Below, piece by piece: positions 12,001 to 29,091 of a DNA stretch of 64,000 nt (its first letter is position 1; each line of letters opens with the position of its first letter). A program made the position numbers and the translations under genes. Source of the DNA: Mariniblastus fucicola (GTDB lineage: Bacteria; Planctomycetota; Planctomycetia; Pirellulales; Pirellulaceae); contig NZ_CP042912.1 of NCBI RefSeq assembly GCF_008087665.1, forward strand, positions 2,418,001 to 2,482,000. The letters are read 5' to 3'. The notes beneath the pieces are model-generated. The model did not search any database, was not told where the DNA came from, and worked only from the letters and a program-made list of their open reading frames with translations.

Positions 12001-13281
12001 TTCAAAAAGCGTTTTTCGTTCTCCTAGTTTCGCCCATGCTTCGTCGAAGTTCAGAAAATTGGTTTGGTTTCCTGTCCTTAGCGTTTCGTATATCGAAGAC
12101 GCCACGCCCCGATCAAAGGGCAGCGAGACGTCAGAAAAACGAAAGTCATCTGAGGTGACTTGCGCACGAAACCAGTCTTCTTCTCGAATCGTAATCAGAA
12201 CGCGAATTCCCGGCTCGCTGGCAAGTTCACGGACTGTTTCAACCCAGAATTGATCTCCGGGACGAACATCGACGTAAACGACGGTTGGTATTTCCAAAGC
12301 TTTTGTGTGACCGGAAATCGCGGTCGCCAATCTGCGCGCGTGTTGAAGGTCAGATGCGCGAAGAACTTCAAATCTAAAGTCGTTCGGTACATTGTCTATC
12401 AAGTAGCGATAGGCCAAAGTGGTCTTGCCTTGACCAGATGCGGCTCGAACGACAACAACATTGTTTTTTGAAAACGCTTGATGAACTTCATTTAACAGGT
12501 GTTCTCGGGGAACATCCAACTCAGCGTGGATGTGTTCAACTCGAACTCGACCACCTTGGAAATAGTCGCTCTTGAGTTTTTCGATGTCGGCCTTTGATGA
12601 AGGCAATTGAATGGGCTTGATTGAGATGTTCCATTCATGCTCAAACGCCGCCCGCTCAGAAAGAAACCTTCCGATTTGACTCAGTTTTCCTACGCTAATT
12701 GCTCGGGTGATTCTGCGTTGCCGCTCAGCCGCATTGACAATCCACCACATCAAATTCTCAAACGCACTTTTCGCATCACCAGCGGTGACGGTATCTCGAA
12801 GTTTCTCGAGGATCGCGCTGGTCAAGGCTTGTTCATCTACACGCTCAAGTTCGATATGTTTGAAAACTCGTTTCGCTTCTGAATCGGACAGGCCTTTGAC
12901 TCGACCAATTTTTCCGTTGCTCTCGGTGATCGTTCGGTCTTTTTTGAGTGTTTCGATCGAGCGACAGGGTGTTTTCTGTTCATTGTCCATTGCGGCCGCA
13001 AGTTCCGGCCCAACTTCACCAAACGACACCAGTTTTACAGATACACTTGATCCTTCTTCGCAATCTGCCAGCACTCGCTTGAAGAAGGTTGGCTTGACAT
13101 TTGAAACCGTCAAGTTGGACGAATAGTCCTTTACCTGAATCACTTCTAGCAACTGGCCGTTTTGATCATAAATAGCTAGATCTTCTTTTCCCTCAGGTTG
13201 GAATATCGTTCCGCCGGGAAGCGCGTCATCGAGCAGTCGAAACAAGCAATACAACGCTTGCCGCCTGTATCCACGATATGT
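9058..13281 (-). CDS. Nuclease-STAND NTPase (Avs-like), 5' end lost to an IS
   Basis: About 1,400 residues remain of a large defence-type protein. The N-terminus preserves 'YRGYRRQALYCLFRLLDD', then 'PEGKEDLAIYD' and 'VIQVKD', the E-D...QxK pattern of DUF4297/Cap4-type nucleases. A NTPase module follows, with Walker A 'AASGQGKTTLAYR' at about residue 270 and 'RVLITIREEDWF'. Some 900 helical residues after it probably form the sensor. This order resembles antiviral STAND (Avs) proteins, which cut DNA after sensing phage proteins. The frame continues without a start into an IS at 13282, so the native start is missing; TTG 13254 is the first remaining start codon. Probably inactive or misregulated. 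Confidence 0.8.
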   Translation of the reverse strand, partial: TYRGYRRQALYCLFRLLDDALPGGTIFQPEGKEDLAIYDQNGQLLEVIQVKDYSSNLTVSNVKPTFFKRVLADCEEGSSVSVKLVSFGEVGPELAAAMDNEQKTPCRSIETLKKDRTITESNGKIGRVKGLSDSEAKRVFKHIELERVDEQALTSAILEKLRDTVTAGDAKSAFENLMWWIVNAAERQRRITRAISVGKLSQIGRFLSERAAFEHEWNISIKPIQLPSSKADIEKLKSDYFQGGRVRVEHIHAELDVPREHLLNEVHQAFSKNNVVVVRAASGQGKTTLAYRYLIDNVPNDFRFEVLRASDLQHARRLATAISGHTKALEIPTVVYVDVRPGDQFWVETVRELASEPGIRVLITIREEDWFRAQVTSDDFRFSDVSLPFDRGVASSIYETLRTGNQTNFLNFDEAWAKLGERKTLFEFAYLVTQAEDLAQKIKSQIATIRDQANSGNLSGDELQLLRLVSVATAFEARLDVSRVDESLQIPDLSRALERFNNEYLLRTTNDGKWVEGFHAIRSEIIADELTDEAFSPRHQLEADVITLLNEEDLEHFLLSAFSRRDEQPVEILQQLSQINLNSWLGIKSVMTALHWLGLREYAEANEELISNVRKAFGSAWWFMLDWDLAQIKGKGGFQIVESLKNLSKEHEFAADSIPTLQSQQSDKNDVFEHWSKWLRRVDIELPEPTSESDFVAASEVLYWLGHLGLQGSVRAAWVKSKDFLSNSCEDLPIQLFSRLACGAQKYNSEVYQAWLEKNRQNVEARFRQAAGVFALEHEKADDCLTSHFIIDIEREASNLSIGSEEANINDMAVQRVDAASFCLSGYQSYGASGYGHRMAFVFDTLGDDSHKRMPIENIVMPWLPSFNALSRGVVVRQFRPNSWSEYFSKIHRMRSLVIRSMVELRKAIRTTQRTGKIGLEDSETWRETSLELTGSLFLPQTAVDPWGFESESRREEPRNRNKTTAISILDNFNKAINEFTSDVSAFMDKAEKSLAYLHHYRNARDNAKRQAIVAKAKELKISDETVRFSVIHGFDSCIELQKVHLEERLLADSGTVFPYNDSFRIQETAEIEKTLRSWSHFTFPEEVAEKPATGSSRKKNKRSSRSRTPVLRDCLRKTRNRVADSLKQLTKHGIYAKVISERVRWEDNSALWISFNVDHPISSLIAIEKMWSCLLEAFKPDRDKIVRAKTIELNWKRIVLVPLVLGKSLEGQALPHMNGVVCGLDEELEANECRLGPMSIPQESLNRLELKCWARHPIWDVFDNFTVAYQALFFHVDHMADFQRCNVELDDLGEEIFKKYLEKEQGRTNPLLQATFDSAAEVFQHFPEIDEDVVSQRSDIFNCMQLIVDMQDSLYPKEGFSEEARLTIDEIAEWRDRMKTGFELLGQARYMWIADSLNLPSFEFPT

Positions 13282-13692
13282 TGCGATAGCCCAAGACTGG
13301 TGGACTCCGGTTTCGTGTTAAGCAGCTAAAGCTGCACGGTAGTTTCTTTCGAATTCGTCGGGCGTCTGGTACCCTAGAGTTTGATGAATTCTCTTCGAGT
13401 TGTAAAACGTCTCGATGTATTTGAAGACGCTCATGCGAGCCTCCTCAAGGTTTTCGTAGCGACGATGCTTCGTCCATTCATGCTTCAGCGACCAGAAGAA
13501 CCGCTCCATGACGGCGTTGTCATAACAGCATCCTGTTCGGCTCATTGAGCACTGAATGTTTAGCGTTCGAAGAATTCCCTGAAAGGCGTCGCTGGTGTAC
13601 TGACAGCCTCGATCGCTGTGATGAAGCAGCACACCGGGCTCCGGCCGTCTTGATTCAATTGCTTTCCTCAAGGCTTCAGTCACGATCGGCGT
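13282..13692 (-). mobile_element. IS3-family remnant (type A, right end)
   Basis: The outer end reads TGCGATAGCCCAAGACTGG inward, the same terminal sequence as the intact left end of another copy at 63591. Only the 3' part of orfB remains. The rest is cut off by the IS that starts at 13693. It broke the STAND gene after its codons for 'TYRGYRRQ'. Confidence 0.85.
13318..13692 (-). pseudogene. IS3 transposase orfB fragment (type A)
   Basis: The C-terminal 124 residues of an IS3-family DDE transposase: 'TPIVTEALRKAI', then 'LLHHSDRGCQYTS' with the second catalytic Asp, and 'CCYDNAVMERFFWSLKHE' with the catalytic Glu. The frame is open up to the junction with the next IS, so the N-terminal part, including the first Asp, is gone. 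The matching intact copy begins at 63591. Confidence 0.85.
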
Positions 13693-13768
13693 TGACCTCC
13701 TCCCCTAAACTTGATCCATGCTGAGTGCGAGAATTCATTCTGGGCTTTGCCCAGAAAGGAATTTTTGG

Positions 13769-14047
13769 ATGTCACGAAAACGTCACAGCACCGATCAGAT
13801 TATTTCGAAGCTTCGTCGTGCCGATGTGGAGCTTGGTAAAGGGAAGAAGGTACCCGAAGTCTGCAAGCTTTTGGATATCACGGAGCAAACTTACTATCGG
13901 TGGCGTCAGAAGTATGGCGGGATGCAGCCTGACATGGTGAAGGAACTCAGAACGTTGCAGAAAGAGAATGCTCGTTTGAAGAAGATGGTTGCGGAGCAGG
14001 CATTGGATATGGAGATACTGAAGGAAGCGTCGAAGGGAAACTGGTAA
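13769..14047 (+). CDS. IS3-family transposase OrfA (type B)
   Basis: A 92-residue OrfA from ATG 13769: 'MSRKRHSTDQIISKLRRADV', a helix-turn-helix ('ITEQTYYRWRQKYGGM') and a leucine-zipper helix ending 'LDMEILKEAS'. It binds the IS ends and, with OrfB, forms the transposase. OrfB lies in the -1 frame just downstream, as usual for IS3 elements, where a programmed frameshift yields OrfAB. A longer frame from 13718 has no ribosome-binding site and overlaps the terminal repeat. Confidence 0.88.
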   Translation: MSRKRHSTDQIISKLRRADVELGKGKKVPEVCKLLDITEQTYYRWRQKYGGMQPDMVKELRTLQKENARLKKMVAEQALDMEILKEASKGNW

Positions 14048-14067
14048 GCCCTGAACGTCGGCGTCGT

Positions 14068-14934
14068 GTGGTCACGGAAGTCCGCCGTCGATTGGGGCCA
14101 GATCGCGTATCAGAACGTCGAGCTTGTCGTGTTCTTGGTCAATCTCGTAGCACTCACCGCTATCAACCGCGTTGTCGTGACGATGAAGCGGCCTTGCTCC
14201 AGGAAATGCGAGCGTTGGCGTTGCGGCGTCCTCGTTATGGCGCGGCCCGTATTCACCGGTTGCTACTTGAACGTCACTGGCGAGTGAATCACAAACGCGT
14301 GCATCGCCTTTGGAAGCGAGAGAACATGCAAGTCCCTCAAAAACAGCATCGAAAACGTCGTTTTCCCGGCGGTAGTGAAAACAGCTGTTACCGTCATCGA
14401 GCTCAACACAAAGATCATGTCTGGTCCTACGACTTCGTCACCGACCGCACCGAAGATGGCCGTCAACTTCGAATGCTGGTGGTGATCGATGAGTACACTC
14501 GTGAGTGTCTTGCGATCGAAGTTGCTCGTTCGTTCACGGCTCAAAACGTCGTTGGCGTTTTGCAATATCTGTTTGCCATTCGAGGCACCCCACAACACAT
14601 TCGCAGCGACAACGGCCCCGAGTTCGTTGCGAGAACGGTTTGTCGCTGGCTCAACCAAGCGGAAGTCAAAACGCTGTTCATTGCCAAAGGGAGTCCTTGG
14701 GAGAACGGTTACGTGGAGTCGTTCAACGGCAAGCTGCGCGACGAGCTATTGAATCGAGAAATCTTCCTGAGCCTGTCAGAAGCTCGCTGGGTGATCGATC
14801 GCTGGCGACTGGACTACAACCATCATCGCCCCCACAGCTCATTGAACTATCAAACCCCTGCTGCTTACGCGGCCGGCAGTGTTCTTCCGGCTTCGGCTGC
14901 GCCTCAGCCTCCAGAACACTGCCGTTTTTACTAA
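14068..14934 (+). CDS. IS3-family transposase OrfB (type B), DDE integrase
   Basis: A 288-residue transposase with an HTH_21 part ('RYGAARIHRLLLERHWRVNH') and an intact rve core: first Asp in 'HVWSYDFVTD', second in 'IRSDNGPEF', Glu in 'NGYVESFNGKLRDELL'. The frame is open upstream of GTG 14068 to the end of orfA, consistent with translation by -1 frameshifting. The last 20 codons lie inside a long hairpin that ends in a T-run and probably terminates transcription. Confidence 0.88.
   Translation: MVTEVRRRLGPDRVSERRACRVLGQSRSTHRYQPRCRDDEAALLQEMRALALRRPRYGAARIHRLLLERHWRVNHKRVHRLWKRENMQVPQKQHRKRRFPGGSENSCYRHRAQHKDHVWSYDFVTDRTEDGRQLRMLVVIDEYTRECLAIEVARSFTAQNVVGVLQYLFAIRGTPQHIRSDNGPEFVARTVCRWLNQAEVKTLFIAKGSPWENGYVESFNGKLRDELLNREIFLSLSEARWVIDRWRLDYNHHRPHSSLNYQTPAAYAAGSVLPASAAPQPPEHCRFY
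14874..14929 (+). repeat. Palindromic terminator-like repeat (copy 1)
   Basis: An 11-bp perfect stem (CGGCAGTGTTC at 14874-14884, GAACACTGCCG at 14914-14924) encloses CTTCGGCTGCGCCTCAG and is followed by a short T-run. Almost the same structure occurs at 16520-16566 at the end of a different IS. Confidence 0.75.
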
Positions 14935-14972
14935 CCCCATTCTCTCACTCGGCCTGGTACTAAACCCGGGGG

Positions 14973-16142
14973 GTGGTCACGTTCGCAATTTTGGCAATTG
15001 GCCAAAGCGGAAGAGCAGACCTTTTGCCATTGGTTCAGTCAAAACTGACCGAAAGCGAATTGGATAGCGATATGGCGTTGTGTTCTCTTTTGGCATTGGA
15101 TGATCTAGCCACCGAATGCCAACCGTTTTTTGAACGACTTACTGAACAATACCGTACTGGCAACCATAAGTATCCGGTACTCAAAGTCATGGATGGCTGT
15201 AGCGACGCCACACCAGAACATTACGTCCAGCTTCTACCTGATGAATCATTCGACAGGCTCGACCTCGACGTCCTTCGCTATGTCGGCAGTCAAGTCGAGA
15301 CGAAGGAATCCGTTCGTGAGCTAGTTCGCAAGCACATCTTCTTCACTGATAGTTTTGGTACTTTCGCATCGGGTTATGTCGATGAAATGATCGACCCAAG
15401 CGTCAAGGATGAATTGAATTTGTTGTGGGAGCATTCCGCAGCTCCAACCGGCAGCTTTTTCAACGGCGACAAAGCAACCGCGATCGAAAAGCTGGCAGCC
15501 GCAGATCACTCAAGCGCGTATGAGATTGCCCTGAGGACGCTCCGACATGATTCTCAGCTTGGTGAAAAAATGCCCGCAGTTTTGTTGAAGATAAACGCGA
15601 CCAAAGCAACCGTCGATCTTTGCGGGTACTTGTCGGAAACGAGCAACAAAAAGATTCTGCGCGCAATCGGAATTGCCTTCAGGCGACACGGCGATGATCG
15701 AATTGTCCACAAATCTATCGCAGAGATTCTGCCTGACGCAAGCTGGAAATTGCGTCGTGCAGTTGCATTTGTGTCGGGATACCTCTCGCAATCAGCAACG
15801 AAAGATTGGCTTGAACAGCTGGCTTTCGGAGATCGAACGCTTTCGGTTACACAAGTCGCCCAGTGCTCAATACGAAAACATCAAAAAGAAGTCGCCGCTA
15901 GCAAAATCGCCGATTCAGTTAGTGCATCTGCCTCGCATGAAGCTTGGGCAGCGATCGAGTCTATTGTTCATCTGGTTGACCCTTCGATCCTTGCAATGAA
16001 GGCTGACCCAATTGGTTTTCATGCAATTTTCGAAGAATTACCCTGGTGCTTTACAAAGTTTGCGAACAAACAGTGTGAAGACCGAGCGAAGAAAATCGCG
16101 AGCGCTCTAGACTCCATAACCAACCGTTGGGACGATGGCTAG
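14973..16142 (+). CDS. HEAT-like repeat protein, 5' end lost to an IS
   Basis: About 387 residues remain of a helical-repeat protein. The first residues after the IS, 'FAILAIGQSGRADLLPLVQS', look like a HEAT-type repeat, and helix pairs continue ('KIADSVSASASHEAWAAIES'). GTG 14973 lies inside the IS end, so the present start is artificial. The native frame begins at the junction near 14983. It diverges from the STAND gene on the other side of the IS cluster, so the two probably shared a promoter region and may have formed one defence locus. No enzyme motif is seen. Confidence 0.65.
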   Translation: MVTFAILAIGQSGRADLLPLVQSKLTESELDSDMALCSLLALDDLATECQPFFERLTEQYRTGNHKYPVLKVMDGCSDATPEHYVQLLPDESFDRLDLDVLRYVGSQVETKESVRELVRKHIFFTDSFGTFASGYVDEMIDPSVKDELNLLWEHSAAPTGSFFNGDKATAIEKLAAADHSSAYEIALRTLRHDSQLGEKMPAVLLKINATKATVDLCGYLSETSNKKILRAIGIAFRRHGDDRIVHKSIAEILPDASWKLRRAVAFVSGYLSQSATKDWLEQLAFGDRTLSVTQVAQCSIRKHQKEVAASKIADSVSASASHEAWAAIESIVHLVDPSILAMKADPIGFHAIFEELPWCFTKFANKQCEDRAKKIASALDSITNRWDDG

Positions 16143-16473
16143 ATGCAGCATCAATGGAAACCCAATCAACAAATCATACGCGCTTTCTGAAGAGGACGGA
16201 TGTGAAACCTTGATTGAATTTTCTAGGTTTTCTTGGGGTTGAAGTAGATCTTAGTCCGTTCTTGCCAATGTTTACCGCAGCACGTTGCGCCATTCAGCGA
16301 CATTTTCTCGTTCCCAGAGTGCGTTCTCAAATAGGCATGAAAAGGAGACCGTCGGGAAAAACAAGTTGGAAGCAAGTGCTAGACCCGTGCCATTGATGTA
16401 CTTCGAATTGGTTCTCTGGCCTGCTCCCAAAAAGTTGTTCCATGTGATAAGAGGTTCTACTGAGCCTTGACCT
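16143..16473. other. Intergenic region, possible gene remnant
   Basis: No complete gene is visible. On the minus strand, 16272-16473 has a coding-like stretch ending 'FENALWERENVAEWRNVLR' before a stop. It could be the C-terminus of a protein gene cut by the IS that starts at 16474. I do not recognise it. Confidence 0.3.
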
Positions 16474-16516
16474 TGCCCCGAATTGAGTCCACTTGGAGCG
16501 TGAGTTTTTCTTTCCC

Positions 16517-17392
16517 TCAGGCAGTGTTCGGAGACTGAGGCGTAGCCGAAGTCGGAGAACACTGCCGGACCGCAAACTCGTTGGGAGTCAGCTGACCCAA
16601 GCTACTATGCGGTCGATTCTGGTTGTAGTCTTTCCTCCACTGATCAAGTTTCTCCTGAGCATCCTCTAAGGAAAGGAACCAGTTCTCATTCAAGCATTCT
16701 TGCCGAACACGCCCATTGAACGACTCTATCACGGCATTATCGGTTGGTTTGCCGGGACGGCTGAAATCAAGCTTAACCTTGTTCCAGTATGCCCACCAAT
16801 CCAAACTCTGGGAAATGAACTCAGGTCCATTGTCCACCTGAATCACTTCAGGGAATCCGTGGACCTTGCAAACTTTTTCCAGAATCTGAACGACATGGTC
16901 GCCCGTCATTCTTTGGCCTGACTCGATCGCGAGGCTAACTCGACTAAAGTTATCGACCAACGTCAGAAGCCGAAAACGACGCCCACAATACAGCTGATCC
17001 GACATGAAGTCCATGCTCCAGCGCTCCCGAGTACGAGTTGGAGAAGCTCTTTCTTCACGAATCTGGCAGCTCCGGTTACGGCGAGGCCGCTTGCGACGCA
17101 TGGCCAGGCCTTCCTCCTTGTAAACCCGGTAGACCAGTTTGTGGTTGACCTTTCAACCCTCTCGTTGCAAGAGAACATGAAGGCGGCGATAGCCGTAGTG
17201 AACACGGCTCGTGGCCAAATCACGAAGTTTGATACGAAGATCTGCCCGATCATCTTTAACACTTTTGTATCGGTGGCTGGACTTGGGGAATCCAGTCGCC
17301 AACAGTGCGCGACGTTCGCTAACTTCATAGGAAACTTGAAGCTTCTTAACGATCGTCCGCCGACGATCGGGCTTTAGACCTTTCCCTGGACA
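16517..17392 (-). pseudogene. IS3-family transposase orfB (type C) with a nonsense codon
   Basis: The reading frame begins after orfA ('GLKPDRRRTIVKKLQVSYEV') and continues to 'RLHVLLQREG', where TGA (minus strand, 17155-17153) replaces the usual Trp before 'KVNHKLVYRVYKEEGLAM'. It then continues to the end, with Asp in 'RWSMDFMSDQ', Asp in 'VDNGPEFIS' and Glu in 'NAVIESFNGRVRQECL'. The catalytic triad is intact downstream of the stop, so this is a single inactivating change. Translation could restart at the ATG at 17101 and give a truncated protein. Confidence 0.85.
16520..16566 (-). repeat. Palindromic terminator-like repeat (copy 2)
   Basis: A 10-bp perfect stem (GGCAGTGTTC / GAACACTGCC) encloses CTTCGGCTACGCCTCAG when read on the minus strand. 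It is nearly identical to the palindrome at the end of the type-B IS at 14874-14929. Here the orfB stop codon follows the stem directly. Confidence 0.75.
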
Positions 17393-17640
17393 ACGTCCTG
17401 AAGCATCTTCTTGTCGAGTCTAAGGTCCGCGACGAGTTGTTTCAGCTTTCGATTCTCTTCCTCAAGTTGCTTCAAGCGCCGGACTTCAGCAACGCCCATC
17501 CCGGCGAACTTCTTCTTCCACCGATAGTAAGTCTGATCTGTAATTCCCATCTTGCGAACGATATCCACAATGGGCGTTCCCGATTCTCCCTGACGAAGGG
17601 CAAATGCAATTTGCTCCTCCGTGTACCTTTTTCGCTTCAT
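17374..17640 (-). CDS. IS3-family transposase OrfA (type C)
   Basis: An 88-residue OrfA: 'MKRKRYTEEQIAFALRQGES', helix-turn-helix 'ITDQTYYRWKKKFAGM', then a leucine-zipper helix 'LRLDKKMLQDVVQGKV'. It resembles the IS407-like branch of IS3 OrfA proteins. The preceding AGGAGGATCAAA gives a good ribosome-binding site. OrfB, which follows in another frame, is broken, so the element is probably immobile by itself. Confidence 0.88.
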   Translation of the reverse strand: MKRKRYTEEQIAFALRQGESGTPIVDIVRKMGITDQTYYRWKKKFAGMGVAEVRRLKQLEEENRKLKQLVADLRLDKKMLQDVVQGKV

Positions 17641-17830
17641 TTTGATCCTCCTGGATTGTGAAAAATACCAAATTTTTTCACGCTCTGCATGGATCAGGAT
17701 TCGGGGGCAAGATCAAAGCAATCTCGTAAACTAACTTCACGAAATTCAGACTTTCATTGTAACACTCTGATATAACCGCATACGTGTAGTAGCGGAGTTA
17801 CTTTTTGAAACACTTAGCGAGAGCAAGCTC

Positions 17831-19144
17831 ATGATGTTGGCCAAACAGATGTTGTTCGCACCACTGGTCGTCTTTTTGGCAATCTTGGCGGAGGGGAATT
17901 TGGATGCCCAGGGGAACAATCAGGTTGTTCCAACGCTTCCGCCAACGACAACCCAGCAAAGCAGCACACTGGTGCCGCCTACCAACATCCAATCGGCCCC
18001 AGTGCAAGGAACTCAGCAGTTAGTCGTGCCGCAACAAAGTTTTCCCCAACAGCAGCAAAGATTGGTCCAACCTCAGCAGGGATTTCCTCAAAAATAAGGA
18101 TTCCCGCAGCAGCAATTTACGCAACCTCAACAGGTCGTTCCGCAACAGCAATTTCAACAGCAGCAATTTGGGCAGCAAGGAAACTTTCAGCAACAACTAG
18201 GCAATTTCCAGCAGGGGGGAGTTCAGCAGCAGTTTCAGCAACCGCCAAACGCATTGAGCAAAGCCCAGCTACGCGATATCGAGACGATGACCTCGCAGTT
18301 GACTCAATACACGAAAATGTTGCATGACCAACACCATGCCTTTCTTGAAGGACAACGGCATGGTCAGAAACTGGACGATGACGTCACGGCGCTTGAGCGG
18401 CAGGCGGAAGCATTGCAAGCGACTGTTACGCAATCAGACGGTAGCCAACAATCCATGCAGCAAATGCGTGGAAGCGCGAGTGACTTCTTGCAGCTTTCTT
18501 TTCGAATTTCGCGTACGATTGATTTGACTCAACCTTGGCTTCGCGGCGGGCAGGCTCAAAACGGAATCACTCAAATGCGACAAGTGGCTCAAGGAACAAC
18601 CACTATTGCTTTGCGTGTCGATCAGTACCTGCCCGTCGATACACAGTTGATTGACCGCCAGACGGAAATCCTCGAGGCGGCGGTAAAAGAACTGCACGAC
18701 GAGTTTCATGAGCATCTGGAAGGTTACGAAGTTTCAAGACATCTTGATGTAGACGTTGAAGGTGTAGAGACGCTTGTCGAGCACATGCACGGATTGGCCC
18801 ACAATAAAAACTGGGGACAAATCAACTTCACTCATCGCTGGCAAGATATCGGTCAGGTGAAACAGAAAACGGCTCACATTGAATCGCTTTTTGTTCGGCA
18901 AGCTCAAATTGGCGTGCGGACTCAGGATTGGATCGGGATCGAACATTCTAGAGATGCGATTACTGATGTGCTCTCTTCCGCATATTTGTTGGAGCACATG
19001 ATCCGAAAGACTCAGCCAGTGCAACAACAGCAGCCAATCCGGCAACCCATTCGAGACACTCGACCACTAAGGGATCGCCACGGTCACCCAGTTGATCCAA
19101 ACAGGGCCTTGGACCGCCATGGCCATTCGCGCGATCACCGATAG
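17831..19144 (+). pseudogene. Secreted Q/P-rich helical protein, interrupted by TAA
   Basis: One frame of 438 codons runs from ATG 17831 to 19144, broken only by TAA at 18095-18097. The N-terminus is a signal peptide ('MLFAPLVVFLAILAEGNLDA'). A Gln/Pro-rich spacer of about 120 residues follows and continues on both sides of the stop ('QPQQGFPQK', stop, 'GFPQQQFTQPQQVV'), so CAA to TAA is the likely change. The C-terminal 290 residues are helical ('LSKAQLRDIETMTSQLTQYT') and end in a His/Arg tail ('RDRHGHPVDPNRALDRHGH'). An envelope protein of unknown function, now probably a pseudogene. Sequencing error is possible. Confidence 0.7.
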
Positions 19145-19271
19145 AGATAAGCGGTTGCGAACAATGCTCTGTAGTAAACTGATCCTTGCCAATGTGGTAG
19201 CTGGCCTTGCACCGAGGTTCAACGTTTGGAAAGTTGGCATTGTTGCATTTGAATCAGACCAAGGATCTTCC

Positions 19272-20018
19272 ATGCGGTTCGTAATTTATGCCGTCGCACT
19301 TATTGTCAGCTTCTTCTTGATTGGATGCGATCAAAGCAAGGAAGCAAATCAGCAGACCGAAGGTCGAACATCAACAAACAAGCTGGAGCAGATTCGCTTG
19401 CACTTTGCCGGGTTTACCAAAAGCAAGAGCGGCGCAACGTGAATGGCCTGACCCGATGCGGTCAATGAGGCTCTGGATGGGCTTCCCGGAATTGAAGAAG
19501 TTGAGATGGAACTGGATCGCGATGAGTTCATCATCGCATACGATTCCGATAGAGTTTCCAAGGCAGAGATTCTTGCTGCCTGTGACAAGTCCGGATTTCC
19601 GGCAACTGTTGTGCAGAATGTGCAAGTTGGTAATGCCAACGACGCTCTTGTTTCGTCAAGTGAGTTTACGCCACCTCCGCTTTATGCCGAGGCACTCGCC
19701 AAAGCAAAGAGCGAGAACAAACCGCTCGTTCTGGACTTCATGGCCGTTTGGTGTTCTCCCTGCAAACGGCTTGTCAGCGAAACTTTCGTCGACGAAGAGG
19801 TTGCTGCTCTTCTGGAGAAATGTGTATTCCTCAAGATCGACACGGATGAGTATCCTGACCTTGCCAAACAGTTCAAAGTCGCCAGCCTTCCAGATATTCG
19901 GTTTCTTTCACCTCAAGGAAAGCAGGTCAAAAAACTAAACGGTTTTCAAACACCCGAGTCGTTTGAGAATGAGTTACGTCATTTACTCAGTGTTAAAGAG
20001 AAGGGTTCAGCAAATTAG
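19272..20018 (+). CDS. Candidate selenoprotein: HMA-thioredoxin lipoprotein with UxxU
   Basis: A 248-codon frame interrupted only by TGA codons 57 (19440-19442) and 60 (19449-19451). The lipoprotein signal is 'MRFVIYAVALIVSFFLIGC'. Around the TGAs the protein reads S-G-A-T-[TGA]-M-A-[TGA]-P-D-A-V-N-E-A-L, then 'DGLPGIEEVEMELDRDEF' and 'ACDKSGFPATVV'. This is a heavy-metal-associated (HMA) domain in which both cysteines of the CxxC metal site are TGA. A thioredoxin domain follows with 'VLDFMAVWCSPCKRL'. A stem-loop at 19467-19485 fits a bacterial selenocysteine insertion element. I interpret both TGAs as selenocysteine; a doubly mutated pseudogene is the alternative. The 3' end overlaps the VOC gene by four bases. 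Confidence 0.72.
19467..19485 (+). promoter_or_regulatory. Possible bacterial SECIS element (HMA-thioredoxin gene)
   Basis: GAGGCTC (19467-19473) pairs with GGGCTTC (19479-19485) with five standard and two wobble pairs, leaving the loop TGGAT. The G at loop position two lies 24 nt after the second TGA and 33 nt after the first. Both distances are within the 16-37 nt window used for bacterial selenocysteine insertion elements. It lies inside the coding frame, as in bacteria. Confidence 0.55.
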
Positions 20019-20398
20019 CTCTGTGCTTCGCCGATACAATAGCACAAGCCATCGGGTGCGATGACGAAGAACAGCCGATACGTCGTGTCACCATGTTTCT
20101 GCATTTGAAGTTCCGCTTTGAAACTTGAGTCGTACGATCGAAGTTCAGCCACAGCCGCCTCGACATCGTCGACCTCAAAGAAACAGCCTTCTTGTGCAGG
20201 ATCACCGCCGTTTTCGGCCAGTCCAATTTGAATCGTATCCCGCTCAAGCACCGCCTTGCGACATCCCTCTTCCGATCGCGACGCAACGCGAAAGCCCATC
20301 TTCGACTCGTAAAACGGAATCGCCGTGTCGATATCTCGAACCGGAAGGCTCATGGCGTCATCGGCGTAGGGCGAAGCTCGAAAGAATTCTGCAGTCAT
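20015..20398 (-). CDS. VOC superfamily (glyoxalase-like) protein, copy 1
   Basis: A 127-residue single-domain vicinal-oxygen-chelate protein: 'LPVRDIDTAIPFYESKMGF' is the typical first beta-alpha-beta unit, and 'CFFEVDDVEAAVAELRSY' starts the second half. The family covers glyoxalases, dioxygenases and resistance proteins that bind a metal or a toxin; the substrate here is unknown. It lies downstream of merR on the same strand. A second copy, 117 of 127 residues identical by my count, is at 46934-47317. Confidence 0.85.
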   Translation of the reverse strand: MTAEFFRASPYADDAMSLPVRDIDTAIPFYESKMGFRVASRSEEGCRKAVLERDTIQIGLAENGGDPAQEGCFFEVDDVEAAVAELRSYDSSFKAELQMQKHGDTTYRLFFVIAPDGLCYCIGEAQS

Positions 20399-20586
20399 TG
20401 GGTTTTGCGATCTACTACGACGTTAATTTAGGAACCAAGCCTTGTCAGACTGCACGCGGCAAAGCAGGAATCTGTCACTGAGCTTATTCAAATGGTGACG
20501 CCAAGGTTCTATCAGCGTATTGATTTGATTTTCAGGAATTGCCATATCGAACGGACGAGAACAAGGTCGGGAAGTCTACCGCTGCT

Positions 20587-21003
20587 TTATAGTTCCTTTC
20601 CAAGATCGTTGTCAATCAACGCATCAATGATTGGGCATCCTTTGACTGATCCCTCTCCGGAACAGTTTTCTACCAACTCGGACAAAGCTTGTTCCGCTTT
20701 TTGAAGCTCGGCAATCCTGCTGCGAAGCGTTTCAGCTTTTTGGGACGCGATGTTTTTGACGGCAGCACGATCGTTTTTCGGGCAATCAGCCAAGGCCAAC
20801 AGATCTTTGATTTCGTCAAGCTTGAAGCCAAGTTCTTTTGCACGTTTGATGAACCGAATCCTCTCCACGACGCTGCGTGGGTAGATGCGGTACGTACCAG
20901 TTGCGACTGGCTGTTCGATCAATCCTTTTCTCTCATAAAATCGGATCGTTTCGACGCCAACCTCGGCGGCCTTCGCGACCTTTCCAATTGTGAATCCAGT
21001 CAT
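20587..21003 (-). CDS. merR: MerR-family metal-responsive regulator
   Basis: A 138-residue MerR-type activator from ATG 21003 (AAAGGAATT upstream). The winged helix-turn-helix is 'FTIGKVAKAAEVGVETIRFY' then 'ERKGLIEQP'. Three cysteines (Cys74, Cys114, Cys123) occupy positions like the mercury ligands of MerR from Tn501 (Cys82, Cys117, Cys126). The last two match exactly in context ('SELVENCSGEGSVKGCPII'); the first spacing is five residues longer. Such proteins bind between -35 and -10 and twist the promoter when metal binds. Hg(II), or another soft metal, is the likely effector. Neighbours on the same strand are the tandem-TGA lipoprotein upstream and the VOC protein downstream. Confidence 0.85.
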   Translation of the reverse strand: MTGFTIGKVAKAAEVGVETIRFYERKGLIEQPVATGTYRIYPRSVVERIRFIKRAKELGFKLDEIKDLLALADCPKNDRAAVKNIASQKAETLRSRIAELQKAEQALSELVENCSGEGSVKGCPIIDALIDNDLGKEL

Positions 21004-21164
21004 TTGAATTCCTTTGTTTTTCTTTTGTTGACGCTTCACTAAAACTCAAATTCGAGATTGTCGAGTCGCATTCGCCATACGGTTCCTGCTGACTCGACAC
21101 TCGTACTCGGAAATGCACTTCCCCGTAAAAGTGCACATTCGAGCAATAATTTCATGAGTTCCGA

Positions 21165-21407
21165 TCAGCTACTTTCACTCTTGCCTTCACTGGCATCAGG
21201 CTCACTTTTTGTTGTTTCATCAGCCTCCTGTTCTTCCGATTTGGTTTCAACAGGCGGTGTTGTTGATGCGTCCGAACCGGACGCTGATTTTGACTGTCAT
21301 CAGCCGCCAGCTGGTGCCGCTGCAGGCACCGCAGGTTCTGGAGATGAGCATCCGCCAAGGCATAAGCACATGGCGAAAACGAATAAGGCGTTGGTTAGTT
21401 TTGACAT
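21165..21407 (-). CDS. Candidate selenoprotein: small lipoprotein with tandem TGA
   Basis: An 80-codon frame from ATG 21407 to TGA 21165, interrupted by TGA-TGA at codons 36-37 (21302-21297). The lipoprotein signal is 'MSKLTNALFVFAMCLCLGGC'. Then comes 'SSPEPAVPAAAPAGG', the two TGAs, 'QSKSASGSDASTTPPVETK' and an acidic, Ser-rich tail. The downstream part has normal composition for such a lipoprotein, so it does not look like read-through noise. A perfect 7-bp hairpin follows at 21284-21268. A Sec-Sec pair replacing a Cys-Cys metal site is my interpretation; Cys-Cys pairs are common in the neighbouring secreted proteins. The alternative is a 35-residue peptide or a pseudogene. The ribosome-binding site (GAGAG) is weak. 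Confidence 0.58.
21268..21284 (-). promoter_or_regulatory. Possible bacterial SECIS element (tandem-TGA lipoprotein)
   Basis: Read on the minus strand, GCGTCCG, loop GTT, CGGACGC forms a perfect 7-bp hairpin. The first loop base is G and lies 20 nt after the second TGA and 23 nt after the first, inside the 16-37 nt range. The top (CCGGUUCGG) contains GGU, as in the E. coli fdhF element. Confidence 0.6.
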
Positions 21408-21458
21408 TTTTAACTCTCAAAATTTGTTGGTTCTGTAGTTTTACTCTTCTAAATCCAC

Positions 21459-22286
21459 TTACTCTTGCTTGCTGGAAGCAGCGATCTGCGCATCAAGCTT
21501 CGCCACATAGGCTGCTGGATCGGCGTCGATCTTCTTGATGCATGGAGGACAACAAACGAAAATCTTGCGACCGTTGACGACAGTCGATTTCATCGAAGCA
21601 TCAACCGCTTTGCCCATCACCGGGCACGTTTTCTGAGCAGTAGCAAGGTTGGTCTGGATTGTCTTCCAATGTTCTGCGTTGAGTGCTTTGCCGACGCAGC
21701 CTTTGCAGCAAAGGAAAGCGACTTCCTTTTCGCCCACTTTGACTTTGATGGGAGCGCCCATAGAGCCAAGCTTTTGGCCAGACACCGGGCAGATGCCTTG
21801 TGCCATTGCGTGGAGCTGATCGCTTTTTGCCTGACGTTCTTTCGCAACGAAAGAGACGTAACTGGCGTTCACTTTCTTCAAAGAACCGTCAGCATCCGCT
21901 TGGATCTTGGCGATACATGGTGGGCAGCAAACAAAAACTTGCTGACCATTGACGACTGTCGATTTCATCGAGGCGTCGACTGGTTTGCCCATGATGGGGC
22001 ACGTTCCTTGAGCCGCTGCGATGTTTGTTTGGATCGTTTTCCAATGTTCGGCATTCAACTCTTTTCCTTGGCAGCCTTTGCAACAAAGGAAAGCGACTTG
22101 CTCGCCGACTTTGACTTTGACGGGATCGCCCATAGAACCAAGGGCTCCGCCGGAGACGGGGCAGATTTTCTGTACGGCAATCTGCAATTGATCGGCATCA
22201 GTTAGCGTGCTTTTCTGTTGTGTTTCTTGAGCGATCGCCGAAACCGCAAGCAATGCAACGGCAACGAATGTTAGTAGTGTCTTCAT
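21459..22286 (-). CDS. Secreted protein with four Cys-rich metal-binding repeats
   Basis: A 275-residue protein with a signal peptide ('MKTLLTFVAVALLAVSAIA'). It has two alternating module types, each present twice: 'CPVSGGALGSMGDPVKVKVG' ending 'AFLCCKGC', and 'CPIMGKPVDASMKSTVVNG' ending 'VFVCCPPC'. They resemble YHS/TRASH-type metal-binding domains with a CP...CCxxC ligand set. The same module occurs twice at the C-terminus of the adaptor at 26039-28321. It follows the RND gene on the same strand, so it is probably part of that operon and acts as a periplasmic metal store or chaperone. The metal is unknown; Cu or Hg is likely. Confidence 0.82.
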   Translation of the reverse strand: MKTLLTFVAVALLAVSAIAQETQQKSTLTDADQLQIAVQKICPVSGGALGSMGDPVKVKVGEQVAFLCCKGCQGKELNAEHWKTIQTNIAAAQGTCPIMGKPVDASMKSTVVNGQQVFVCCPPCIAKIQADADGSLKKVNASYVSFVAKERQAKSDQLHAMAQGICPVSGQKLGSMGAPIKVKVGEKEVAFLCCKGCVGKALNAEHWKTIQTNLATAQKTCPVMGKAVDASMKSTVVNGRKIFVCCPPCIKKIDADPAAYVAKLDAQIAASSKQE

Positions 22287-22403
22287 ATCTCACCTGTGTC
22301 TGTTAAATGTCGTGGGTTCCAATGGTTCCCGAATTTTCAAAAAGTAAATTAAGTACTAGAGATTGAGTTTCATTTTTCTGGGGTCATATTTTTTGGCACT
22401 CCT

Positions 22404-25400
22404 TTAGGTTTCGATCTCGGGGGTCGTTTCAAGGACGATTCCCATCTTCATTTTGAATTCTGCGATAGCGCAATAAACGGTAGGCACGACGAAAGACGAG
22501 AACGGTTCGATCAGCATGCCGCCAAAGACCGGGATCGCCATCGCACGAGCGACATCTGCTCCTCGGCCATCAGAAAGTAGTACGGGTAGCAAAGCGACGA
22601 GCGTTGTCACCGTGGTCATCAGGCAAGGCCGAACGCGTTTCATCCCTGCGTCGTAGACGGTTTCGCGAAGTTCGTCGATCGTTTTTGGATTACGTCGCCT
22701 GACGAGTTGTTGGATGTAAGTCGCCATAACGACGCCATCATCGACGGCGATACCGAACAGGGCGATGAAGCCGATCCAGATCGCTGTGTTCATCTGCACA
22801 TCCGCAATCGCGATCGCAACCATCCCTGCGGCGAACGAAACGGGAATGGCTGAAAAGATCGTGGCGGCAATGGAGAAGTTCCTGAAGCTCAAATAGAGCA
22901 AGAAAAAGTTGATCAACATCGCCAGCGGAACCAATCCCAGCGGAACCCAGTTCAGCACCCACGCAATTCGATCCTGTATGGAGTTGATCTCCTTTGGGTA
23001 GTCCAGATCAAGCAGCGGCCCCAGCCACGCAAGCCGAAGATTGGACTTCACTTGGTTTTCAAATGATCCAACCGGCACCATCTCAAAATTGCCGTCCGGA
23101 AACTCAAGTTCGCCGCTGGCTCTGGCGTTGGTCAGCGTTTTCATTGCTGAATTGACGGTTTCAATGTCGCCTTGAACGCCGGACGGAGAGAAGATCACGT
23201 GCGCGACCAACCGCGAATCTTCGCTGTTGATCATGCCCGGCCCCCAAGAGGTACTCGTGGTGGCAAGGCGTTCCAATGGAACGATGTCACCGGTCGGTGT
23301 TACGACGGGAACTTTGTCAAGTAAATCAACTTGCTCGCGTATGTCTCGGCGGAAGCGAACTTGAACCGGGTATCGTTCGCGGCCTTCGACGGTATTGGTA
23401 ACGTTGACGCCACCAAGTCCCGCACCAACAATTTCGTTTACCATCTCGGTTGTCATTCCGTAACGGGCCGACTGATCGCGATCGACTTCGAACTCGAAAT
23501 AGGGTTTACCAAGAACAACGTCTGGATTGACTGTTCTTTCATCGACAAGCGGATTGGTTTTCAACACGTCTGCCACTCGATTGGCTGCGATCCCGAGTCC
23601 CTCAAGCGAATCGCCGTAGACGCGAATCGCCATCGGAGCTTTGATTCCGCTGGCCAACATGACGACTCGACCTTGGATCGGTTGCAGCGGAGACGCCAGT
23701 GTCACGCCGGGCAAAGTTGCAACGGCATTGACTTCATCCCAAATGGCCTTCGCATCGACACCATCCCGCCACTGATCTCGCGGCTTGAGCATGATGTAGG
23801 TTTCGACCATTGTGACCGGAGCAGGATCGAGTGCCGAATCGACTCGGCCAATCTTGCCCAAGACATTTTCAACCTCCGGGATCTGTTGGATCATCGCGTC
23901 TTGCGTTTGCAAAACTTCCATCGCTTGGGAAAAGCTTGCCGCCGGATAGAGACTGGGCATGTAAAACCAGCTTCCTTCGTCCAACGCGATCCAGTCATCT
24001 GACTCAAGGCCGGTGAATGTGTGCTTTGCGTCGACGTAACCGGGAAGTTCATTTAGCTCGGCTCCGAGCCGATTAGCGACCTTTTCGATAGGAGCAAGAA
24101 TCGTTGGGAAGCCGAACCAAGCCCCCGCACCAACAAAGATGATGAAAGCGGGAAAGGAGAGCATCAACAGTTTGTGTCGCAGAGCAAATCGTAACCGCGC
24201 TGCATAGAGAAACCGGATCAATCCACTCACCGGATTTTCTTCAATCGGGCGAATTCGCTCTCGCAGAATCCACCAGCCGATTGCGAAGCCAAGAACGGAA
24301 ACCACTGCCGTCAGCCACTCCAGCGGAATCGTTTCGACAGGTTGCAATCCGAGCTTGGGAACGGCGACCGACAACCAGTTGATCGCTGCGACGCAGACGT
24401 CATTCAGGTGATGGCCCCAGACGAACTGACACAACAGTCCCGCGATGGCGGCAACTCCGAGCGCTCCCACGAAGGCAGCCCACTTTGGCGTTCGACTGCT
24501 TTTCAGGAACAGTCGGCACAGGGTTGGGACAACGGTGACCGCAACGATCAGGCTGGCAACGATGGCGAATGTTTTTGTCCAAGCCAGCGGTGAGAACAGT
24601 CTTTGATCGCGACCGGTGAGAAAGAAAACGGGTAGGAAGCTGACGACCGTTGTGCTGACCGCAGTCACCACCGCCGGAGCGACCTCAGTTGCGGCGCGGC
24701 GGATGACATCGACACGAGTCTCCGTGCTGCCACCGTCGATGAGACCTTCGGAGGCCCCGTCTTTTTCCCAATCCGCCAAGTGGTCATAGATGTTCTCAAG
24801 GACGATGATGCCCATGTCGACCATCGTTCCGATCGCGATGGCAATTCCGGCAAGCGACATGATGTTCGCATCCACACTGAAGACATTCATGGCGATGAAC
24901 GCAATCAGCACAGCCAGCGGCAAAGAAATGGCAATGATCAGGCTGGCCCGAAAATGCAACAGGAACAAGATGACGATCGCGATCGTGACCAACGTCTCCT
25001 GCATCAAAGCTTCGCTGAGCGTGTGGACGGTTTCGTCAATCAGAAACGTGCGGTCGTAGATGCCTGTTATTTTGACACCGCCGAGTTCAGGTTCGAGAGA
25101 AGCGATCTTTGCTTTGACGTTCTCGATGACGGTGCGCGGATTCTCTCGATACCGCATCACGACGACGCCACCGACGGCTTCGGAACCGTTTAAGTCCAAG
25201 GCACCTGTGCGGAAAGCGGGGCCGGTTTGTACAGCGGCCAAGTCACGAACTCGAATCGGCACGCCTTCATTCGATTGCACGACCGTGTCGCCAATTTGCT
25301 CGATGGTTTCTTCTTCGGATTTACCCGAACCGAGAAAGCCTTTGCCGCGAACGAGATATTCCATCCCAGAAGTCTCAGCGGTCTTCGCACCGACTTCCGC

Positions 25401-26042
25401 GTTGGATGCTTTGACGGCCATCAGCAATTTGTTCAGCGTGATGTTGTGGTAGCGAAGCTTGTCCGGATCGACTTCGATTTGATACTGGCGAACGTAGCCG
25501 CCAATGGAAGCAACTTCCGCAACGCCATCGACGGATTCGAGCGCCAGCTTGACGACGTAGTCTTGCAACGATCTCAAGTCGGCGAGGTCGGTATCAGGTG
25601 CAGGTTCCAGCACGTAGTAGAAAATCTGCCCGAGTCCCGTCGCGTCCGGCCCCAGCACGGGCGTAACGCCTTTAGGGATTTTGCCCGACGGCAGGGAAAG
25701 CAGCTGCTCTGCGACTCGCGAACGTGCCCAATAAAAATCGGTGCTATCGTCGAAAGTGACTTGGACGAAGCTAAATCCAAACATGCTTTTGCCGCGAACG
25801 CTGATCGCGCCGGGCACGGCTTGAAGAGCAACCGAGAGCGGGTACGTCAGCTGGTCTTCGACGTCTTTGGGAGATTGGCCGGGCCAGTCGGCCAGCACGA
25901 TGACTTGGTTGTCGCCAACGTTAGGGATGGCGTCCAACGGAACTGAGTTGGTGGAAAACCAACCGATCGCAACGACCAGCAACGCCACCAAGATGACGAT
26001 TAGGCGCTCTTCGATACAAAATTTTACGATTGAGCGAATCAT
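22404..26042 (-). CDS. cusA: CusA-type heavy-metal RND efflux permease
   Basis: A 1,212-residue inner-membrane RND pump that drives metal out with the proton gradient. The fourth membrane segment 'AIAIGTMVDMGIIVLEN' (about residue 400) fits the CusA/SilA Cu(I)/Ag(I) group rather than the DFG-type Czc group. The N-terminus 'PLDAIPNVGDNQVIVLADWP' is typical of heavy-metal RND proteins. An insertion with extra hydrophobic segments lies between about residues 510 and 600 ('WAAFVGALGVAAIAGLLC', 'WLTAVVSVLGFAIGWWILRE'). Its start overlaps the adaptor stop (ATGA), so the two are co-translated. A TolC-family channel is not adjacent; the ones at 35-38 kb could serve. Confidence 0.93.
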   Translation of the reverse strand: MIRSIVKFCIEERLIVILVALLVVAIGWFSTNSVPLDAIPNVGDNQVIVLADWPGQSPKDVEDQLTYPLSVALQAVPGAISVRGKSMFGFSFVQVTFDDSTDFYWARSRVAEQLLSLPSGKIPKGVTPVLGPDATGLGQIFYYVLEPAPDTDLADLRSLQDYVVKLALESVDGVAEVASIGGYVRQYQIEVDPDKLRYHNITLNKLLMAVKASNAEVGAKTAETSGMEYLVRGKGFLGSGKSEEETIEQIGDTVVQSNEGVPIRVRDLAAVQTGPAFRTGALDLNGSEAVGGVVVMRYRENPRTVIENVKAKIASLEPELGGVKITGIYDRTFLIDETVHTLSEALMQETLVTIAIVILFLLHFRASLIIAISLPLAVLIAFIAMNVFSVDANIMSLAGIAIAIGTMVDMGIIVLENIYDHLADWEKDGASEGLIDGGSTETRVDVIRRAATEVAPAVVTAVSTTVVSFLPVFFLTGRDQRLFSPLAWTKTFAIVASLIVAVTVVPTLCRLFLKSSRTPKWAAFVGALGVAAIAGLLCQFVWGHHLNDVCVAAINWLSVAVPKLGLQPVETIPLEWLTAVVSVLGFAIGWWILRERIRPIEENPVSGLIRFLYAARLRFALRHKLLMLSFPAFIIFVGAGAWFGFPTILAPIEKVANRLGAELNELPGYVDAKHTFTGLESDDWIALDEGSWFYMPSLYPAASFSQAMEVLQTQDAMIQQIPEVENVLGKIGRVDSALDPAPVTMVETYIMLKPRDQWRDGVDAKAIWDEVNAVATLPGVTLASPLQPIQGRVVMLASGIKAPMAIRVYGDSLEGLGIAANRVADVLKTNPLVDERTVNPDVVLGKPYFEFEVDRDQSARYGMTTEMVNEIVGAGLGGVNVTNTVEGRERYPVQVRFRRDIREQVDLLDKVPVVTPTGDIVPLERLATTSTSWGPGMINSEDSRLVAHVIFSPSGVQGDIETVNSAMKTLTNARASGELEFPDGNFEMVPVGSFENQVKSNLRLAWLGPLLDLDYPKEINSIQDRIAWVLNWVPLGLVPLAMLINFFLLYLSFRNFSIAATIFSAIPVSFAAGMVAIAIADVQMNTAIWIGFIALFGIAVDDGVVMATYIQQLVRRRNPKTIDELRETVYDAGMKRVRPCLMTTVTTLVALLPVLLSDGRGADVARAMAIPVFGGMLIEPFSSFVVPTVYCAIAEFKMKMGIVLETTPEIET

Positions 26043-28321: not shown

Positions 28322-28584
28322 ACTCGCGCAAGAATCTATTGGGCTTGATTGGCGAATCAGGATGTCTGATTCACAAACGAAGCTGTACGAAATCGAGATG
28401 AGTTCGCATTAAGTGCGTGAATGCGGGCAGTTGATTTCCTCGCGTGATGCTTCGGTAGTTCGTTTGGAACCCAAGTGAAAGATCACGACAGGCGAAACGA
28501 AGTTAGCAATGGCATCAGACAAAACGGCTCTTCAGAGCGTTTTGGTGGAGAAATGAGCGCGCATTTACGTTGTCGATTTCGGAA

Positions 28585-29091
28585 TCAACACGTAAAACGA
28601 GAGAGCAGAACGCAACGTTCTTGAGAAGAAAGGGCCGCGAATTCAAGTGCGGATCGTGGATGGGCAACAAGTCGTTTACCGACTTCACGAGGATACCCAA
28701 CGACCGGGGCCGCACAAATCAAAACTGGCGAGACGGTCTCGTTTGATTCGCTGGGCGGCACTGCTGGCGAAAGTGGATCCGGTTGGTCTTCCTCGGCGTT
28801 GCAATTGCAATCAACGCACTTGCAAGTCATCGCTTCGGGATTGCAGCAGCAGCCGTTTGTTGGAGCGGCTTGCTTGGTCGAACAACAACTGGGTTCCGAA
28901 TCTTGAACCGCACGGGAACAACACGAGGATTCTGTAACGGACGGAACCGCTTCGACGGTTTTAGTCGCACTGCAACTGCACCCGCAGGCAGAACCAGATG
29001 TGAAAGCCAGCGATTGCAAACCGATGGCGGCGGTCGCGAACACCAAGAGTGTCGCGATCATCGAACGTCGAATTGTTGATTGGCTTTTCAT
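28585..29091 (-). CDS. Secreted Cys-rich metallothionein-like protein
   Basis: A 168-residue protein with a signal peptide ('MIATLLVFATAAIGLQSLAF') and a central part very rich in cysteine: 'ACGCSCSATKT', 'SSCCSRAV', 'PSCCSTKQ', 'NGCCCNPEAMTCKCVDCNCN'. The C-terminal 60 residues are ordinary. The cysteine clusters suggest binding of several soft metal ions outside the cytoplasm. It lies about 260 bases upstream of the adaptor/RND pair on the same strand. Comparable small secreted Cys/His-rich proteins stand before the other two adaptor genes (38709 and 55769). It is not a true metallothionein by length; function is inferred from composition. Confidence 0.75.
   Translation of the reverse strand: MKSQSTIRRSMIATLLVFATAAIGLQSLAFTSGSACGCSCSATKTVEAVPSVTESSCCSRAVQDSEPSCCSTKQAAPTNGCCCNPEAMTCKCVDCNCNAEEDQPDPLSPAVPPSESNETVSPVLICAAPVVGYPREVGKRLVAHPRSALEFAALSSQERCVLLSRFTC

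Follow-up and report, generated by a model that had tools for sequence, protein, structure and literature searches.

The window analyzed here is a 64,000-nucleotide stretch of the Mariniblastus fucicola genome. It contains a frame (19272-20018, forward strand) that would encode a fusion of a metal-binding and a thioredoxin domain if two internal TGA codons were read through. The question is whether these codons are read as selenocysteine (Sec) and what the protein would then do. We predict a selenoprotein gene with a lipoprotein signal, a UxxU HMA domain, and a DsbD-gamma-like thioredoxin. The product is probably a membrane-anchored, periplasm-facing selenoprotein in which a UxxU HMA soft-metal site is kept reduced by the fused thioredoxin. 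The selenoprotein interpretation, made in an earlier note on this DNA, is supported. The computed support comes from the conserved UGAs, from selection acting on the hairpin and on the frame downstream, and from the Sec machinery, the folds, and the genomic association. The mechanism is inferred from the anatomy of the protein, its context, and general chemistry.

The gene and its domains

The frame encodes 248 residues with both UGAs read as Sec. Upstream of the TAG at 20016, the only in-frame stops are the TGAs at 19440-19442 (codon 57) and 19449-19451 (codon 60). The frame is thus open except at the two Cys positions, as the earlier note had it. Both codons are predicted to encode Sec, as the first and second metal ligands, respectively. 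The chance that two randomly placed TGAs fall on exactly codons 57 and 60 of 247 is about 3 in 100,000. These odds and the conservation of the TGAs in homologues bear out the view that random decay is improbable. The main evidence for the two UGAs is their conservation, above the random-placement odds. In the same frame, the table 11 ORF listing contains only a 170-residue internal ORF (19506-20018). Since standard-code ORF calling shows a mere fragment, such genes are easily missed. A scan for a promoter of the gene found none.

The frame begins with the lipoprotein signal that had been proposed ahead of the HMA part. The signal peptide (19272-19328), read from the sequence, has the lipobox L-I-G-C and ends at Cys19. 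The HMA domain follows at 19383-19616. It is assigned from PF00403, solved HMA domains, and the predicted model. PF00403 matches residues 52 to 109 with 33.2 bits (cut-off, 24.8), and a distant relative (L027) falls short of this threshold with 22.0. U57 and U60 align with both GMTCxxC cysteines of the HMA domains from two copper ATPases. The in-frame UGAs therefore stand at sites of Cys in homologous domains. MerP was also matched by the HMA part in the comparison with solved HMA domains. The metal loop (G-F-T-K-S-K-S-G-A-T-U-M-A-U-P) is longer than ordinary HMA loops. AlphaFold2, run with a 43-row family alignment, gave a model with a pLDDT of 88.1 and a pTM of 0.78. In its HMA part, strands and helices at residues 38 to 113 follow the order beta-alpha-beta-beta-alpha-beta, with a pLDDT of about 95.

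The thioredoxin domain lies at 19677-20006 on the forward strand. It had been described as intact, and it is. PF00085 covers residues 146 to 235 with 58.8 bits (cut-off, 23.5), and the CxxC is WCSPC (19749-19763). AlphaFold2 places a thioredoxin fold at residues 136 to 245. The nearest solved fold found by Foldseek for this half is the DsbD C-terminal domain (E value, 1.6e-8; 32% identity).

Relatives, additional UGA codons, and gene surroundings

Of the 241 genomes of the family that were searched, eight have a one-piece fusion whose matched stretch contains two TGAs, the window gene being one of them. In G056 the fusion is divided between two contigs, which brings the family total to 9 of 241 genomes. 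When 392 genomes of the phylum were searched with a profile, the HMA site was covered in 35 rows from 31 genomes. Each row has 2 to 4 in-frame TGAs, a count that in a few rows takes in the TGA at which the gene ends. A 32nd genome (G467) was recognized on reading its locus, where this gene has a long linker. A public-genome scan found further fusions in MAGs of Planctomycetota and in MAGs of Gammaproteobacteria with SAR86 and Pseudomonadales labels. Among 369 genomes in the class of one Pseudomonadales MAG (G624), the fusion at E <= 1e-22 was solely in that MAG. A partial, stop-free row from residue 75 (G557) lacks the fused HMA motif.

The relatives are 22 to 54% identical to the window protein (alignment A3, in which the first-site U is partly due to row choice). 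A set of 47 proteins was picked with a motif demanding U at the first site, which is there by construction; the unbiased count is that of the 35 rows. A relative with both TGAs and a CxxS thioredoxin (L128) is outside the protein and tree sets and inside the neighborhood counts, and a partial one (L132) is outside the tree. A lipobox-like motif is present in 33 of the 47 relatives, and the gammaproteobacterial clade, with 7 rows, lacks it throughout. From their sequences, the proteins of this clade seem to be secreted without an anchor. One fusion gene that nests in the clade (L027/L063; NVWB01000315.1) is binned as Blastopirellula. This L063 contig, of genome G057, may be bin contamination or transfer.

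The earlier note had looked to homologues with Cys or TGA at codons 57 and 60. TGA is kept at both, and random disruptions are absent. In one relative (L093/L124), the second site is Cys (U-S-A-C) and the hairpin is retained. No Cys-only fusion was found among the matches listed that cover the HMA site in the 241, 392, and 369 genomes, for which the best 11, 4, and 7 candidates per genome, respectively, were scored; the weakest rows of the 241-genome search lie outside these matches. Searches for a Cys-only fusion in plasmids and phages returned 5 records and 1 record, respectively, all matching in the thioredoxin part only. Since no such fusion was found, the Cys/Sec pairing rests on general HMA domains and on the UxxC of L093/L124.

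Many relatives contain additional UGAs. Among the 47 proteins, 30 have two, 14 have three, and 3 have four. One that was counted with two (L056) carries two further in its tail. The thioredoxin site is UxxC in two clades of the 46-row tree (12 and 4 rows), and both may have a single origin. The fourth UGA is at PDT-U in L106, L109, and L111. For 12 of the 20 added UGAs tested, a 22-nt window at <= -7.5 kcal/mol is in reach, several offsets having been tried and the best one taken. The other 8 have weaker windows, the weakest at -4.5 kcal/mol.

Several loci were also read individually. L056:9833-11305 contains, in one frame with four UGAs, a UxxU HMA domain, a WCGPC thioredoxin, and another HMA domain, which has GMTUPDGU. 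The UGA site of this second domain is followed by a CCC-UGGAA-GGG hairpin. At the C termini of L054 and L116, and also in L026, a third domain with SPxUxxC (SPTUGPC or SPGUPMC) contains a third in-frame UGA. The flanks of the fusion on the minus strand of L106, upstream and downstream, contain a CopZ-MerT neighbor that reads through a UGA at GMTUPQSC and a Grx-like ORF with SSATUGSC. Apparently, three selenoprotein genes are close together there. A frame that directly precedes the fusion in L052, around 9624, has an HMA domain with GMTUAAC at its end, and here too a metal ligand is encoded by UGA. G410:C2:2302072-2302275 (L158) and other planctomycete HMA frames contain one or two in-frame TGAs. 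HMA domains with Sec may be widespread among planctomycetes. In L129:7992-8798, a Cys HMA domain precedes the UxxU HMA-thioredoxin in frame, like two genes joined.

The main rival to a metal-binding role is a purely redox one. The protein would still be a selenoprotein, with UxxU as the redox center. Its HMA-like domain would be a diselenide partner reduced by the thioredoxin, for example, against peroxides or envelope disulfides. This we consider unlikely. It would suit the fusion to a thioredoxin that is itself UxxC in two clades, which is like a tuning of electron flow. It also accords with the 2026 review, which deems most uncharacterized selenoproteins likely redox. It sits poorly with U57 and U60 in the cysteine places of HMA metal sites, and with UGA-bearing HMA domains elsewhere, namely, the second one of L056 and that of the L106 MerT protein.

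The gene surroundings also bear on this choice. Downstream of the window gene, on the minus strand, is a gene for a MerR-family regulator (20587-21039). Its best model is mercury MerR, with 133.4 bits, which misses the cut-off of 150.85. A CusA/CzcA heavy-metal efflux RND permease is encoded at 22404-26042 (minus strand; TIGR00914, 796.5 bits, over the cut-off). A CusB-type adaptor with a heavy metal binding domain is encoded at 26039-28321 on the same strand, also as a neighbor of the window gene. The protein encoded at 21459-22286 (minus strand) has Cys-rich repeats of the TRASH type and, by eye, a signal peptide. These are repeated CPVSG...CCKGC units, and the gene adjoins the CusAB genes. 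No match to MerT was found in 10001-29000, and the window gene is in no operon with MerT. The best MerA match in the genome reached 389 and did not pass the cut-off of 454.

Metal genes were sought around 49 loci, including the window. At least one was found in 29 of the 49 neighborhoods and in none of 20 controls (P = 1.4e-6). The queries were drawn from six case loci, and without those six the count is 23 of 43. The controls were 20 nonrandom stretches, one contig each from 20 of the genomes, with 241 kb in total versus 658 kb for the cases. Among stretches of >= 8 kb, metal genes are present in 25 of 44 versus 0 of 16 controls. MerR was found in 24 neighborhoods, the CopZ N-terminal domain in 11, MerT in 9, RND parts in 6, CsoR in 5, and a P1B ATPase in 3. 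MerR is within 2.5 kb at 22 of 48 loci. A CopZ-type zinc-binding domain, MerT, and a Cys HMA domain (Pfam) are joined in the gene next to the fusion, on its upstream side, in L099, L116, and L117. This enrichment in metal regulators and transporters argues against the redox role. The 20 of 49 neighborhoods without the metal genes sought, to which the larger UxxC-thioredoxin clade contributes 8 of its 12 rows, are in its favor.

Predicted decoding of the UGA codons

A predicted bacterial SECIS hairpin lies at 19467-19485 on the forward strand. It has a stem of 7 bp and the loop UGGAU, with G at 19475, second in the loop, exactly as first described. Spacers of 31 and 22 nt separate the loop from the first and second UGAs, respectively. 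The minimum free energy (MFE) is -8.5 kcal/mol for 19 nt or -9.3 kcal/mol for 22 nt. The bSECIS rules given in PMC13188914 are a stem of 4 to 16 bp, a loop of 3 to 9 nt, a G among the first two loop positions, a distance of 16 to 37 nt from the UGA, and an MFE of <= -7.5. A bSECIS model had been named as a check, and the hairpin agrees with all of these published rules, applied by hand.

The hairpin was compared across 39 sequences. This set omits one locus too near a contig end (L023), loci without the motif, and repeated sequences. The loop opens with U-G in 39 of 39. Of the stem cells, 242 of 273 (0.886) are paired, versus a mean of 0.754 and a maximum of 0.806 in shuffles and 0.22 to 0.56 in slid registers. 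Two-sided changes occur at 6 of the 7 pairs (covariation). Under synonymous recoding with the protein fixed, the mean z is -2.43, and z is below -1 in 36 of the 39 hairpins. The other 3 have z above -1, and L088 is poorly paired in this register. Across 47 genes, the hairpins have a mean z of -2.47, compared with -0.09 for 940 control windows taken from those genes (P = 5e-26). Because related sequences are not independent, P values are only guides. The hairpins of 43 of the 47 genes attain -7.5 kcal/mol. The hairpin is conserved, is under selection beyond protein coding, and fits the bSECIS rules. A small conserved stem, UGACC/GGUCA, lies at 19449-19464 on the forward strand with the second UGA inside. 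Its cells are paired in 169 of 195 cases over the 39 sequences, which equals the shuffles. It was given no weight because a covariation signal is absent.

The case for Sec had also been made to depend on selA, selB, selC, and selD, and all four are in the same genome (6.57 Mb in one contig). SelB (355.7 bits), SelA (555.4 bits), SelD (265.1 bits), and tRNA-Sec (70.1 bits) are all over their cut-offs. ARAGORN also calls the tRNA as Sec, with the anticodon UCA. Across the 392 genomes, SelA (E <= 1e-50) is present in 29 of 32 fusion genomes versus 213 of 360 others (Fisher P = 2.3e-4). The three fusion genomes without SelA are 77 to 84% complete, and SelB is over the cut-off in all three. In the genome that L063 comes from, SelA matched with 266.4 bits, slightly below the cut-off. 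SelA is over the cut-off in four of the five gammaproteobacterial genomes tested. In G627, no SelA was found at E <= 1e-20, and SelB matched only below the cut-off. In the family set, SelB (E <= 1e-50) was found in 6 of the 8 fusion genomes tested. It was not found in G057. The other exception is G038, a genome of one contig that is given as 99% complete and contains a three-UGA relative (L024/L116). The empty SelB search at this threshold makes G038 the one real contradiction to the Sec linkage.

These results were weighed against the possibility that the locus is a decayed pseudogene or a sequencing error. The TGAs would then be ordinary stops, and the product would be the 170-residue ORF from 19506 or nothing. 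We regard this as very improbable. The table 11 listing, with its internal ORF only, and G038, with a relative and no SelB found at E <= 1e-50, would be in line with it. It conflicts with the same two TGA codons in relatives of 22 to 54% identity and in the 35 unbiased rows. The presence of the same TGAs in dozens of independent genomes makes a sequencing error very unlikely. Nine pairs of relatives, none with the window gene, were compared for dN/dS downstream of the first UGA, and eight of them give 0.10 to 0.33. The ninth pair has 0.51, at a dS of only 0.06. This purifying selection downstream of the UGA, together with selection on the hairpin (47 genes) that exceeds the demands of the protein, led us to reject both decay and sequencing error. 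UGA reassigned, or read through as an amino acid other than Sec, is less probable still and was also rejected, since TGA ends 6 of the 24 long ORFs in the window as an ordinary stop (with a further in-frame stop 2 to 42 codons on), the Sec machinery is complete, the SECIS rules hold, and no points in its favor were found.

Proposed mechanism and comparison with known systems

In the selenoprotein that we favor, SelB and tRNA-Sec would decode UGA codons 57 and 60 as Sec. The one hairpin at 19467-19485 may serve both UGAs. The protein would be anchored in a membrane and face the periplasm. Two selenolates would stand in for the HMA metal cysteines, with UxxU for CxxC. Such a site would be very soft and suited to Hg(II), Cu(I), or Ag(I). 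Selenolates have affinity for mercury. They are also readily oxidized, and a pair, once oxidized, is unable to bind metal. For this reason, the fused thioredoxin is proposed as the reductant of the pair. This DsbD-gamma-like domain, presumably supplied by a membrane electron transducer, would keep the selenolates reduced in the oxidizing envelope. The loaded HMA domain may hand its metal to a MerT-like importer at loci with such a neighbor. Near the window gene, the recipient may instead be the CusA/CzcA-type exporter. The links to MerR and MerT would favor Hg(II), and those to Cus, CsoR, and CopZ would favor Cu(I) or Ag(I).

A broader reading is put forward tentatively, as somewhat less probable than its opposite. 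It holds that the family is a Sec-dedicated envelope soft-metal system with 2 to 4 Sec per protein and SECIS elements that are own or shared. Each protein would combine an all-selenolate HMA trap with a thioredoxin reductant that is sometimes selenium based. Its partners would be of the MerR, CopZ-MerT-HMA, and Cus types. The system would be the selenium-based equivalent of the periplasmic shuttle of mer, apparently with no all-cysteine form, in which case selenium would be indispensable to its function. If true, the known roles of selenium in proteins would be widened toward metal capture by a family that has an all-selenolate metal site fused to its own reductant and up to 4 UGAs within some 240 residues. 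The family bears on why cells pay for Sec where Cys binds metal, with the ordinary Cys HMA domain as the control.

The fusion passes none of the NCBIfam cut-offs among the 25 of 29 matches listed, and neither do seven relatives. MerP has a periplasmic HMA fold with two soft-metal ligands and is the partner of MerR and MerT. It uses Cys and has neither lipobox nor thioredoxin, and the window protein scores 34.6 with its model (TIGR02052), below the cut-off of 92.55. The DsbD gamma domain is the nearest solved fold to the thioredoxin half but sits in a membrane reductase. The window protein scores 60.2 with the DsbD model (NF001419) versus a cut-off of 330. TsoB (NF045694), which is rhodanese/DsbD fusion-like, is likewise a multi-Sec protein with a DsbD-like thioredoxin end. 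It has a rhodanese rather than an HMA domain and another Sec motif, and the score is 58 bits (cut-off, 805). The MerT/CopZ fusion-like heavy metal transport selenoprotein (NF045683) shares the HMA domain of mercury-type transport. It has a membrane MerT part and no thioredoxin, and the window protein scores 22.7 versus 375. A UGA-bearing MerT-HMA gene of this kind stands beside the relative L106.

Table 1 of a 2026 inventory contains 119 prokaryotic selenoprotein families, mostly with one Sec and a small subset with two or three. The lipoprotein-HMA-thioredoxin fusion is absent from that table. No report of the fusion was found in the freely accessible literature searched, which included main-text passages of PMC13188914, PMC9312934, PMC2398784, and PMC4807772, and the terms sought are absent from PMC12013277.

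Among Sec-related NCBIfam models, the HMA part matches NF041115 (UxxU_metal_bind) best, and this is likewise a UxxU metal-binding domain. Its model has 74 positions and, unlike the window protein, no lipobox or thioredoxin. The window protein has the UxxU motif and scores 44.5 versus the cut-off of 95. This cut-off was passed by 0 of 199 genomes of the phylum, and NF041115 was rejected as the family name on the score. The 2026 review gives NF041115 as a putative mercuric reductase with UxxU and 2 Sec. It credits the UxxU unit to Zhang and Gladyshev 2007, from an Olavius symbiont. The proposal of a new kind of envelope selenoprotein therefore stands in part. As a small metal-binding selenoprotein, the UxxU HMA unit had been described before. 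New here are its fusion to a lipoprotein signal and a thioredoxin, the multi-UGA forms, and the genomic context.
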